Source of the DNA: Fimbriimonadaceae bacterium
Lineage (GTDB): Bacteria; Armatimonadota; Fimbriimonadia; Fimbriimonadales; Fimbriimonadaceae
Direction: 5' to 3'
Assembly: GCA_019638775.1 (NCBI GenBank)
Contig: JAHBTD010000002.1
Coordinates: forward strand, 806,001-870,000
Length of the DNA stretch: 64,000 nucleotides
Part shown: in pieces, positions 29,006 to 33,204 of the stretch
Numbering within the stretch: position 1 is the first letter of the stretch
Layout: each line of letters opens with the position of its first letter
Translations under genes and position numbers: made by a program
The notes under the pieces: model-generated
The model's input: the letters and a program-made list of their open reading frames with translations, nothing else
Database searches by the model: none
What the model was told of the DNA's origin: nothing

Positions 29006-29105
29006 CGGCATTCCTATTGTGACTCGCAAACCCCAATGCCGTTTTACGTCATTAGGTTCCCTTGCGTTCAAGAGTCCTAAGTCAAGCAGACGCTGCTCTT
29101 GGGAG

Positions 29106-29125
29106 GGCAGCGCTTCGTCGCTGCC
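29106..29125. repeat. REP hairpin 1
   Basis: GGCAGCG-N6-CGCTGCC with GGGAG just before it. It sits 3' of the RAYT gene and is inverted relative to the two copies on the other side. Confidence 0.88.
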
Positions 29126-29136
29126 ATAGACACCTA

Positions 29137-29622
29137 TTAGGGGTCATACCATTCAAACTCGTTCAGCTCACCCTGATAAGGCCAATCTTCTGGTCTCTCG
29201 ACTAACCAGTGTCGAATCGGATTCGATCGCACATACTCCCACTTAGCATTGTAGTTTTCATGAGATCGCAACTGTCGATCCCAATAGTCGATCTGCCAAA
29301 TGGGGTGCTGATCAGGAAGAGGCCACTCTTTGCTGGCCAGCGCCTTCCAATACTTGATCCATCTGCTCAGACTATAGGCAGGCCGTTCACTCGGGGCGCA
29401 AAAGAAGTGTATGTGGTCCGGAAGAATGACGTACCTGCCCACCTTCCACTTCTCGGCTTGCTGCCATGCTTCTACAATAGTCTTAGCAGCCTGTGCGTCA
29501 ACCAGAATTTTCTTGCGATGGTTTGTGCAGACCGTCACAAATAGAATCGTCGAACGGTTGCGGTATGCCTTGTTTGGCAAGTGAACAGGGTGCAGACGCT
29601 TCGGCAAATCTGGGTTGCTCAT
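29137..29622 (-). CDS. REP-associated tyrosine transposase (RAYT, Y1 family)
   Basis: From ATG 29622 the product is 161 residues. It carries the HUH metal motif as DHIHFF (about residues 70-75) and the catalytic tyrosine in ENYNAKWEYVRSNP (about residue 130). Flanking REP hairpins at 29106, 29636 and 29674 are its expected single-stranded DNA substrates, so the unit resembles a complete REPtron. RAYTs cut and join REP sequences and are domesticated relatives of IS200/IS605 transposases. The gene is inserted between folE2 and glcF. Confidence 0.92.
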   Translation of the reverse strand: MSNPDLPKRLHPVHLPNKAYRNRSTILFVTVCTNHRKKILVDAQAAKTIVEAWQQAEKWKVGRYVILPDHIHFFCAPSERPAYSLSRWIKYWKALASKEWPLPDQHPIWQIDYWDRQLRSHENYNAKWEYVRSNPIRHWLVERPEDWPYQGELNEFEWYDP

Positions 29623-29635
29623 GTATAACTGATAC

Positions 29636-29655
29636 GGCAGCGACAAAGCGCTGCC
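29636..29655. repeat. REP hairpin 2
   Basis: GGCAGCG-N6-CGCTGCC, in the orientation opposite to REP 1, 14 bases upstream of the RAYT start codon. Confidence 0.88.
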
Positions 29656-29669
29656 CTCGCACTTCGATT

Positions 29670-30881
29670 TTACGGCAGCGACGAAGCGCTGCCCTCCCAG
29701 CCCGAACAAACCAACTCCAGTATCTCAGCCAAATACAGAACTTTCAGGCGCTCCCCATGCTCCCGGACCGCCTGCGCGATCCAGCCGTGACATCCAGGAT
29801 TCCCCATCACGATCAGGCTCGCTCCGGTCGATTCGGCGTTCGCATACTTCCGCTCCAGAAGCTCTCGCGCGAGCTTAGGCTGGGTGACGTTGTAAATCCC
29901 TGCGCTGCCGCAGCACATGTCCGCCTCCGGCATCTCGATCAGCTCCAATCCTGGGATTGCATTCAAGAGTTGCCGAGGCTGGATGCGAATCTTCTGCCCG
30001 TGGGCAAGGTGGCAGGCATCGTGATAGGTGGCGGTCGCTTCCCTTCTCGGCAGCTCACTGAGCAGATCGAGCAGACCGTTCTCGACAAAGAACTCGGAGA
30101 TATCTTTCACCCGGTCGCCAAAGGCGGTTTGCTCCTTCATGTGGCTGCCGCATCCGGCAGAGTTCACCACGATGGGAAGATCGCCGGGCATGGTCTCGGC
30201 GAGCCGCTTCGCGTACTGCTGTCCGACCTCCAAGAACCCGTTGTGCGCGTGAAGAGCCCCGCAGCAGCCGGAGCTGCTGGGCTTGACAGCATAGCCGAGT
30301 CTTCTCAAAAGCCTGCGCGTGGCCTCGTGGACGTTCGGATACATCACCCGCATGACGCACCCCTCCAGCATGTACACCTGACCCTTGATCTCGGGGAGCG
30401 CGGCTTCGTCGAGCGGAGGCCAGGGGAAGCTCGGCTGAGGGGTGGGCTTGTCGGCTTCGGGCGATTGCCCGCTGAGGATGCGGCTTAGAATCGCGGGGAT
30501 GCGCTTTCCCGGGATGATCTTGGAAAGGCCAAGCTGAATCCTCATCTTGGTTGGGCTGCTCAGACCGTCCAAGAACATCCGTTTGGCCCGATGCTTGTGA
30601 ACCTCTTCGACCCGCGTTCTTGCCATCTCCAGGATCGCGCCGTATTCGACCCCGCTGGGACAGGCCGTTTCGCAAGCTCGGCAGCCGAGGCACTGGTCGA
30701 GGTGCGGCCCGACGTCTTCCTTCCAATCCAGCTTGCCCTCGTCGGCGGTGCGTGCCAGGTAAATGCGTCCGCGCGGGGATTCGGTCTCCTGCCCGGTCAG
30801 CACGAAGGTTGGGCAGCTTTCCAGGCAAAAGCCGCACCGGATGCAGTGGGAGGTGAGGTCGGAAAGCTTGTGGTCGCTCAA
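29670..30881 (-). CDS. glcF: Glycolate oxidase iron-sulfur subunit GlcF
   Basis: The 403-residue product has two N-terminal 4Fe-4S motifs (CIRCGFCLESCP and CLGCRACETACP, about residues 13-75). Two CCG domains follow (GCCGALHAHNG and MCCGSAGIYN), as in GlcF and lactate/glycolate oxidase partners. It passes electrons from the GlcD/GlcE flavoproteins towards the quinone pool. The start is TTG, overlapping the glcE stop (TTGA), and the order glcD-glcE-glcF is one operon. The last ten residues are encoded by a REP element, so the original end has been replaced. Confidence 0.93.
   Translation of the reverse strand: MSDHKLSDLTSHCIRCGFCLESCPTFVLTGQETESPRGRIYLARTADEGKLDWKEDVGPHLDQCLGCRACETACPSGVEYGAILEMARTRVEEVHKHRAKRMFLDGLSSPTKMRIQLGLSKIIPGKRIPAILSRILSGQSPEADKPTPQPSFPWPPLDEAALPEIKGQVYMLEGCVMRVMYPNVHEATRRLLRRLGYAVKPSSSGCCGALHAHNGFLEVGQQYAKRLAETMPGDLPIVVNSAGCGSHMKEQTAFGDRVKDISEFFVENGLLDLLSELPRREATATYHDACHLAHGQKIRIQPRQLLNAIPGLELIEMPEADMCCGSAGIYNVTQPKLARELLERKYANAESTGASLIVMGNPGCHGWIAQAVREHGERLKVLYLAEILELVCSGWEGSASSLP
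29674..29700. repeat. REP hairpin 3, overlapping the glcF end
   Basis: GGCAGCG-N6-CGCTGCC (29674-29693) followed by CTCCCAG. It forms the last codons of glcF, so the GWEGSASSLP tail of GlcF is REP-derived. Confidence 0.88.
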
Positions 30882-31540
30882 AAGATGCCCATCTCCCCTG
30901 GATTGAGTTTGTGCGTCGGGTCGAAGATCTCCTTGGCCCGCTTCATGTAGCGGATCATGGCGGGGTCGGTGATTTGGGGAATCTGGGATTGGGCGTTCGG
31001 TGATGCAAAGTCAGCAGGCGTTGCACTCAGCGAGGATGAGATCGGCTTGAGCGGATTCGTCTTCAAGATGACTTCAGCCACGACTCCGAGTGTGCCCCGA
31101 GCACCGATAAACAGCTTCTGAACGTCGTACCCCGCGACATTTTTGACGGCTCGGCTGCCGCACTTTCGAACACAGCCGTCTGCAGTAACAACCGTCATCC
31201 CCAACACCCAGTCTCGCCAAGAACCATACTCCGACTGCAAGCGATGTGGTGCATTGGTCGATAAGGCCCCACCAACCGTCGGGTCGCTCACGCCGCCGGA
31301 GATAGGCAGACACTGTCCCTTTGAAGCCAGCTCCTCTTGAAGCACTGACAGCGGCGTTCCCGCCCTTACGACGGCAACCTGATCCTCAGGAATGCAGTCG
31401 ATCAGTCCCGCATAGGCGGACATCGCTAGCACGTCTTCACCTTGCTCCTCAACATCTTGAAGGAAGCCTCGAATTCGCAGCCGATCAGCCGAAGCCACAG
31501 CCTCGACAATCCCCGTCAAGCTATCTGGACGATGGATCAC
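30878..31540 (-). CDS. glcE: Glycolate oxidase FAD-binding subunit GlcE, short form
   Basis: From the GTG that overlaps the glcD stop (GTGA) the product is 220 residues. The FAD-binding type 4 fold is clear: LPISGGVSDPTVGGALSTNA, RDWVLGMTVVTADG, KNVAGYDVQKLFIGARGTLG. It ends with FDPTHKLNPGEMG, the normal family ending. It is much shorter than the roughly 350 residues of E. coli GlcE, because the cap domain between FAD domain and tail is missing or reduced. It acts with GlcD and GlcF to oxidise glycolate or D-lactate. Confidence 0.88.
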   Translation of the reverse strand: MIHRPDSLTGIVEAVASADRLRIRGFLQDVEEQGEDVLAMSAYAGLIDCIPEDQVAVVRAGTPLSVLQEELASKGQCLPISGGVSDPTVGGALSTNAPHRLQSEYGSWRDWVLGMTVVTADGCVRKCGSRAVKNVAGYDVQKLFIGARGTLGVVAEVILKTNPLKPISSSLSATPADFASPNAQSQIPQITDPAMIRYMKRAKEIFDPTHKLNPGEMGIF

Positions 31541-33204
31541 CACGCCACCCCGCGCCAGCGCTTCTGATGCTCCACGCAGCTCTTCTGATTCGGCAGAATC
31601 TTGCACGGGTTGCACAGCATTCCGTCGTTGAAGATGCGCTTCGCCATCGCCTGCAGCTCCAAGTCCGCCGGACTGAACATCAGCGGCATCAGGTCGACCT
31701 TCTCTACGCCGATCCCGTGCTCGCCGGTGACGCTGCCTCCAAGCTCGATGCACCGCCGCACGATCACTTCCCCGGCCTCGACCACGCGCTTCACCTGGTC
31801 GGGGTCGCGGTCGTCGAAGTAAAAGCAGGGGTGAAGGTTGCCATCGCCCGCATGGAACAGGTTGGCGACGCCCAGGCCGTGCTCCTCGGCGACTTTGTAC
31901 ACAAAGTCCAGCATCTCCGGGAGCTTGGAGCGGGGGATCACGCCGTCGTGGGTGACGATGCTGGGCGCAAGCCGCCCCATCGCCCCGATGCCCTTCTTTC
32001 GGGCGGTCCAAAGCTCTTGCCGCTCGCGCTCGTCCTTGGCGATGCGGACCTCCAGCGCGCCGTTTTCCTGGCAGATTCGGGAGACGGCGGACATTTCGTT
32101 TTGGACAACATCTTCCGAATTTTGGATTTTGGATTTTGGATTTTGGATTGGATCGCCGATTGCCGATAGCTGATCTCCGATATCTACGCCCCGATCGCTG
32201 ATCGCCGATAGCTGATCGCCCCCAAAACTCCCCTCCCCCTGCGACGAAGGAGCGAGGGGGAGGGGGTTGGGGGAGGGGGTTTCCCGATGACCGATCCCTG
32301 ATCTCCGATCTCCGATATCCACACCCCGATCGCTGATCGCCGATAGCTGATCGCTACTGTCACACTCCACCAACAGCAGCGCCTCTGCGCCTTCGGGATA
32401 CTGCAGATTGAACGCGGCTTTGAGAGCTTTAAGGATCCCCTTGTCCATGATCTCCATCGCCGCTGGGAGCACCCCCTCGGCGATGATCTGCGCCACGGCC
32501 TGCGTGGCTCCGCGCACCGTCGGGAACGCGGCGAGCGCTGTCTTGACGGCTGCCGGAACGGGCGTCAGTTTCACCCAAGCCTCCGTCACGATGCCCAGCG
32601 TCCCTTCCGAACCCACGATCAGACCCAGAAAGTCATAACCCGGCCCGCCGGGGACCTCCCCGCCAAAGCGCACCACTTCCCCATTCGGCTCGACCATCGT
32701 GATGCCCAGGATGTGCTGAACCGTCACCCCATACTTCAGCGTGTGCGGCCCGCCCGAGTTCTCGGCGATATTGCCGCCGAGGGTCGAGACGGTCTGGCTG
32801 CTGGGGTCGGGGGCAAAGTGCAGGCCGTGCTCGGCGACGGCGTCGGAGATGCGCTTGTTCGCGATCCCAGCTTGGGCAAGCAGGCAGCGATTCTCGACGT
32901 CGATCTCCAGAATCTTCGTGAGCTTCTTGGTGGAGATGATCACGCCCCCCATCGCCGCCAGCGCGCCGCCGCTCAGTCCCGTGCCCGCGCCCCGCGCCGT
33001 GTAGGGGACAGAGTTTGCCACGCACCACTGCACCACCTTCTGCACCTCATCGGTGGATTCGGGAAGGACGACGACAGCCGGCTTGCTGCGGTCGACGGTG
33101 TAGGCGTCGCAGTCGTAAGCCCGCAAAGCCCCTGGCCCAGAAAGCACTTTGTGCGCTTCCAGGATGGACTCCATTCCACGGGCGATCTGCTCAGCGTCAG
33201 TCAT
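31537..33204 (-). CDS. glcD: Glycolate oxidase subunit GlcD with repeat-derived insertion
   Basis: The 555-residue flavoprotein has an FAD-binding domain (TARGAGTGLSGGAL near residue 70; GGNIAENSGGPHTLKYG near 145; GSEGTLGIVTEA) and a C-terminal oxidase domain (ANLFHAGDGNLHP, GEHGIGVEK). Between LLLVECD (about residue 281) and DVVQNEMSAV (about 363), where homologues have only a few residues, lie about 80 extra residues. They contain DQLSAISDRGVDIGD twice and NPKSKIQN. These are translated intergenic-type heptamer repeats. The frame is preserved, so the enzyme may still fold with an exposed loop. It oxidises glycolate or D-lactate. Confidence 0.92.
   Translation of the reverse strand: MTDAEQIARGMESILEAHKVLSGPGALRAYDCDAYTVDRSKPAVVVLPESTDEVQKVVQWCVANSVPYTARGAGTGLSGGALAAMGGVIISTKKLTKILEIDVENRCLLAQAGIANKRISDAVAEHGLHFAPDPSSQTVSTLGGNIAENSGGPHTLKYGVTVQHILGITMVEPNGEVVRFGGEVPGGPGYDFLGLIVGSEGTLGIVTEAWVKLTPVPAAVKTALAAFPTVRGATQAVAQIIAEGVLPAAMEIMDKGILKALKAAFNLQYPEGAEALLLVECDSSDQLSAISDRGVDIGDRRSGIGHRETPSPNPLPLAPSSQGEGSFGGDQLSAISDRGVDIGDQLSAIGDPIQNPKSKIQNSEDVVQNEMSAVSRICQENGALEVRIAKDERERQELWTARKKGIGAMGRLAPSIVTHDGVIPRSKLPEMLDFVYKVAEEHGLGVANLFHAGDGNLHPCFYFDDRDPDQVKRVVEAGEVIVRRCIELGGSVTGEHGIGVEKVDLMPLMFSPADLELQAMAKRIFNDGMLCNPCKILPNQKSCVEHQKRWRGVAW
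32118..32362. repeat. Composite repeat insertion inside glcD
   Basis: From low to high coordinate: GATTTTG heptamers (32118-32150), GATCGCC/GATAGCT heptamers (to about 32217), a GC-rich hairpin with four G5 tracts (about 32225-32281), then more GATCGCC-type heptamers. All parts except the hairpin match arrays found between genes elsewhere in the window. Confidence 0.9.

Follow-up and report, generated by a model that had tools for sequence, protein, structure and literature searches.

Heptamer and hairpin repeats apparently translated as an extra loop of glycolate oxidase subunit GlcD in a Fimbriimonadaceae bacterium

Results

An 80-codon in-frame insert in glcD

The window, a stretch of 64,000 nucleotides from the genome of a Fimbriimonadaceae bacterium, carries a glycolate oxidase locus on its reverse strand, where glcD is followed by a glcE-like frame, glcF and a gene for a REP-associated tyrosine transposase (RAYT). 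The features of the locus are as follows, in the sense direction of glcD.

31537–33204, reverse strand: glcD, a 555-residue glycolate oxidase subunit with an 80-residue in-frame insert, identified by family and PDB matches
about 32116–32355, reverse strand: GlcD insert, residues 284–363 (80 codons, 240 nt), delimited by alignments and gaps between HSPs, missing in 77 relatives
32286–32354, reverse strand: GATCAGC-type heptamer block, copy 2
32222–32281, reverse strand: GC-rich hairpin module with a G-rich/C-rich tail, TPSPNPLPLAPSSQGEGSFGG
32151–32219, reverse strand: GATCAGC-type heptamer block, copy 1, DQLSAISDRGVDIGDQLSAIGD
32119–32149, reverse strand: CCAAAAT heptamer array, 4.4 perfect units (TRF), reading IQNPKSKIQN
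30878–31600, reverse strand: glcE-like open frame with an FAD_binding_4 domain, directly after glcD, start approximate
29670–30881, reverse strand: glcF, GlcF-like with CCG and 4Fe-4S domains, last codons and stop inside a REP palindrome
29137–29709, reverse strand: RAYT (NF047646, 91 bits), just after glcF
29100–29128, 29633–29661 and 29671–29699: inverted REP palindromes around RAYT

The identification of GlcD is based on its FAD_binding_4 and FAD-oxidase_C domains (Pfam) and on the glcE-like and glcF-like neighbours. The matches of the protein to these domains and to TIGR00387 (NCBIfam) flank the insert on both sides. TIGR00387 scored 440.8 bits, under the family cut-off of 567.9, and matched in two stretches with the insert between them, and the PDB glycolate oxidase 9qgz aligned to GlcD residues 13–282 and 381–537, with the break at the insert. 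Outside the insert GlcD is complete; the sequence on either side of it is intact and in frame, on a contig of 1.16 Mb. The first-pass annotation, made from the sequence alone, had claimed that the reading frame is kept and the rest of GlcD is intact, and this holds, as both halves match GlcD and glcE and glcF follow.

In the sense direction the insert is composed of a GATCAGC-type block, the GC-rich hairpin module, a second GATCAGC-type block and the CCAAAAT array. The two blocks are 69 nt each, 86% identical and 135 nt apart, and they encode DQLSAISDRGVDIGD, which is present twice in the insert. TRF reported GATCGCC/GATAGCT arrays besides the CCAAAAT array, and the GC-rich section folds into a hairpin. 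The earlier description of the insert as a heptamer repeat plus a GC-rich hairpin, with DQLSAISDRGVDIGD in duplicate, is thus borne out. The insert as a whole was also considered as a functional RNA fold and rejected, since it folded no better than its shuffles (z −1.36). In an AF2 model built from three sequences, which is poor (mean pLDDT 47), the insert is unstructured, with a strand before it and a helix after it.

The insert is absent from GlcD of relatives

The GlcD protein was searched against 85 genomes of the family, its own included; 78 matched, of which 77 are relatives from other genera. The insert was not found in any of these 77. Two-part matches listed among the relatives leave 0–63 nt between the parts, and an alignment of 29 relatives has a short loop at the insert site. 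Residues 284–363 therefore lack a counterpart where homologues have a short loop, as had been noticed at first, and the comparison with relatives, by which a conserved protein segment would have come to light, found none at this position. GlcD of Nostoc and of Chloroflexaceae also lacks the insert, and a search for related loci gave only distant GlcD among genome contigs and nothing among viral contigs. At the same loop, the GlcD of G058 (genus g23, locus L017) has a segment unlike the insert, rich in proline and about 25 residues long, which suggests that this loop tolerates insertions.

The modules recur in the genome but the composite is unique

A word of two heptamer units, GATTTTGGATTTTGG, was counted 82 times in the genome, against 0 for its reversed control, so it is more frequent than expected by chance. 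Each of 84 family relatives has 0–2 copies, and across 291 genomes of the phylum high counts were seen elsewhere only in G150 (64) and G226 (17). The arrays are tandem 7-nt units, dispersed genome-wide and mostly intergenic, and in this they are STRR-like. Two of them lie in likely operons, between rimI and tsaD (L100:8431–8466) and between motA and motB (L109:4019–4033). The GlcD hairpin has four further copies in the genome with 1–3 mismatches each. No other copy of the full-length GlcD composite was found in the genome, the best other matches being short (e.g. 53–104 nt at 79–92%). The modules are therefore common to other sites, and their combination is unique to GlcD. Of the original proposal that a composite intergenic repeat had inserted into glcD, the part concerning intergenic repeat modules stands, but a single piece moving in does not agree with the lack of a full-length copy elsewhere.

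At least ten host genes carry modules in frame

We analysed 43 stretches around repeat matches, in which genes were called with a home-made codon-usage script and then checked against families. Modules lie in frame also in ArgS, LeuS, MetG, MiaB, TrmFO (twice), UvrA, HisH, LpxK and an alpha-L-rhamnosidase-like protein, so that this genome has, GlcD included, at least ten host genes. The MiaB insert comprises about 140 residues where seven aligned relatives have 4; the two TrmFO inserts (about 25 and 115 residues), the UvrA insert (about 50–60 residues) and the short repeat segments of ArgS are likewise missing in the aligned relatives. HisH and LpxK contain the same repeat-derived peptide as other carriers. 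The insert sites of LeuS and MetG are linkers of variable length in relatives too, and the length of the ArgS loop also varies. In MetG, MiaB, LeuS and UvrA the insert is placed between Pfam domains. In other genera, too, GC hairpins were found in frame, for example in ArgS and MetG (G052) and in UvrA (G029).

ArgS (L078:3744–6116) has in addition a non-repeat segment of about 120–150 residues near residues 180–325 that is missing in seven relatives. The UvrA frame (L113:3315–5444) stops after the first half of the protein (709 residues), with no second half encoded adjacent to it; several relatives have short UvrA frames as well, in some cases with a TAG within the matched region.

Repeats within genes are also found in an independent case. 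G226, which belongs to another family of the phylum, has at least three in-gene heptamer arrays (L168, L172 and L173), all reading PKSKIQN, in ValS, an acyl-CoA dehydratase activase and UvrA. Its UvrA array sits in the same loop as the UvrA array of the window's genome. Large open reading frames over arrays in L171, L175 and L177 were judged to be spurious antisense frames.

The genome search returned a single match for each of LeuS, ArgS, MetG, TrmFO and UvrA, so no clean second copy was seen; that tRNA enzymes with one match are among the carriers speaks for the carriers being functional. These data bear on whether the insert is an assembly error or GlcD a decaying pseudogene. Heptamer arrays can be mis-sized in short-read assemblies, and this genome is in 126 contigs with a contamination of about 4%. 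Nonetheless, we give an artefact or decay hardly any credence, given the intact flanks of GlcD on a long contig and the same type of event in ten genes, including several tRNA enzymes with a single match, as well as in an independent genome.

Arrays within genes are read in one direction only

CCAAAAT is translated as PKSKIQN and its reverse strand as ILDFGFW, and both strands are stop-free in all frames. A 7-nt unit cycles through the three codon frames, therefore the same heptapeptide results whatever the frame. The two peptides differ in hydropathy (GRAVY −1.81 for PKSKIQN versus +1.30 for ILDFGFW). In a census of 52 CCAAAAT arrays, 12 were within predicted genes and 12/12 read NPKSKIQ, versus a 9:14 split for arrays between co-directional genes (Fisher p 0.0006), in a test that is small, depends on a home-made gene caller and reflects in part ascertainment of in-frame copies inside open reading frames. 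One in-gene array (L083) is doubtful, because a probable lipoprotein start lies downstream of it, and dropping it leaves 11/11. When only family-confirmed in-gene arrays were taken, from the window's genome and G226, 14/14 were hydrophilic and none read ILDFGFW (two-sided binomial about 0.0001). The in-gene arrays occupy all three codon phases. Several CCAAAAT arrays have a GATCAGC array as a neighbour in the same orientation. The reverse strand of GATCAGC contains TGA stops, so such sites provide no independent evidence of orientation; this confounding appears not to affect ArgS, the first TrmFO insert or the three G226 sites. An orientation bias within genes and none between them, with both strands stop-free, points to selection acting at the level of the presumably translated protein.

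Although the sequence is mostly coding, genes hold only 12 of the 52 arrays, which are thus much rarer there than in intergenic DNA, suggesting that most insertions are probably harmful. None of the nine co-directional flanking pairs tested (of ten listed) proved to be one gene split by an array. The open-frame fraction was 0.47 for intergenic arrays and 0.44 for matched controls, indicating that arrays in general are not unusually open. Compared with intergenic arrays, those in genes tend to have greater length and fewer imperfections.

This last tendency would be expected if the inserts were retained for a function, as flexible linkers, binding or regulatory loops, or DNA or RNA signals that help the host genes. 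The heptamer in the same UvrA loop in two distant lineages and the position of several inserts at interdomain linkers agree with such retention. We nevertheless consider it unlikely, since relatives manage without the inserts, the host genes share no single pathway, the insert sequence tracks the DNA repeat with no conserved protein motif, and in-gene copies are strongly depleted.

The direction of reading is also informative as to whether the inserts could be missing from the mature protein through ribosome bypass, RNA splicing or protein processing. Several inserts contain stable hairpins, and hairpins of such kind mark bypass elements in some mitochondria. However, all inserts examined are in frame and stop-free, which would be unnecessary if they were skipped, the orientation bias tracks amino-acid properties, and no intein family match was obtained in GlcD or the other carriers. 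Removal of the inserts thus appears highly improbable.

Discussion

The extra loop of GlcD is probably translated repeat DNA that spread at the DNA level, with only in-frame, hydrophilic copies in loops surviving. Heptanucleotide arrays (CCAAAAT, GATCAGC and others) and GC-rich hairpins would have multiplied between the genes of this lineage, and some may have landed or grown within genes. A stop-free heptamer unit would be open in every frame and give the same seven-residue cycle, PKSKIQN in the case of CCAAAAT. Within a gene, a copy would survive only if its total length kept the frame, its sense reading was stop-free and hydrophilic, and it lay in a loop or interdomain linker able to tolerate a disordered segment. 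Heptamers may move by slippage or recombination and hairpins possibly by REP-like mobilisation. The surviving inserts are, on this account, presumably disordered and close to neutral.

The first-pass annotation saw in GlcD a clear case of non-coding repeats becoming protein sequence in an enzyme. The in-frame modules in at least ten genes strengthen this reading; translation itself we infer from the kept frame, the avoidance of stops and the bias in orientation, and on these grounds the cell apparently makes its carrier enzymes with added 'junk' loops. More broadly, and tentatively, some heptanucleotide repeats might be a protein-compatible kind of spreading sequence: a unit without stops on its sense strand yields one hydrophilic heptapeptide whatever the frame, and so could enter loops of essential proteins in any phase. 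Such entry would have taken place independently in distant lineages and would provide new linkers, some of them perhaps co-opted, as the UvrA loop used twice might suggest.

The principle is known from the Rickettsia palindromic elements (RPE), also present in Wolbachia. As described in PMC2229807, which refers to Ogata 2000 and Abergel 2006, and in PMC3767692, these intergenic repeats also lie in frame in conserved genes, in 19 reading frames, and a guanylate kinase carrying one is translated and active. The likeness is the in-frame position in conserved protein genes, here GlcD and nine more. An RPE is a single palindromic unit of about 100–150 bp in intracellular Alphaproteobacteria, whereas the present inserts combine heptamer microsatellites with GC hairpins in a mosaic that lacks a fixed unit; only module-length matches occur elsewhere in the genome, and no discrete 100–150 bp palindromic unit with a conserved family sequence was found there. 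What is new is this heptamer and hairpin mosaic in another phylum. Bacterial MITEs, e.g. QMITE2 in Coxiella, are small dispersed repeats that similarly extend or interrupt open reading frames in frame (PMC5896051, PMC2229807), but heptamers are not MITEs, and no inverted repeat pair resembling MITE termini was detected in 32090–32380 at the settings used.

Many dispersed, mostly intergenic arrays of tandem 7-nt units are described for cyanobacteria, Xanthomonas and Beggiatoaceae in the relevant sections of PMC4692102 and PMC4679880, which regard them as intergenic or regulatory elements and note that the Xanthomonas and Nostoc repeats are under-represented on the coding strand of open reading frames. 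Those sections contain no report of in-frame heptamer arrays in tRNA enzymes with such an orientation bias. The present case would extend selfish DNA in proteins, as in Rickettsia, to simple heptamer repeats, to another phylum and to core tRNA enzymes, following the simple rule that 7 nt in three frames make one peptide. With both strands open and one used, the repeats offer a built-in control for protein-level filtering of repeats in genes, and a route from non-coding DNA to protein loops becomes directly testable.

The GlcD hairpin resembles REP/RAYT systems in being short and GC-rich, and glcF is closely followed by a RAYT between REPs, but the sequence of the hairpin is not that of the RAYT's REP (GGCAGCGACGAAGCGCTGCC). 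These REPs were rejected as the source of the hairpin on account of the sequence mismatch, and they were not found in the GlcD insert at up to 4 mismatches. Because of this difference RAYT is named here only as a possible agent in moving the modules, and a link between the RAYT/REP system and the mobilisation of GlcD-type hairpins is a conjecture. At glcF itself, the REP encodes the C-terminus WEGSASSLP and the stop codon.
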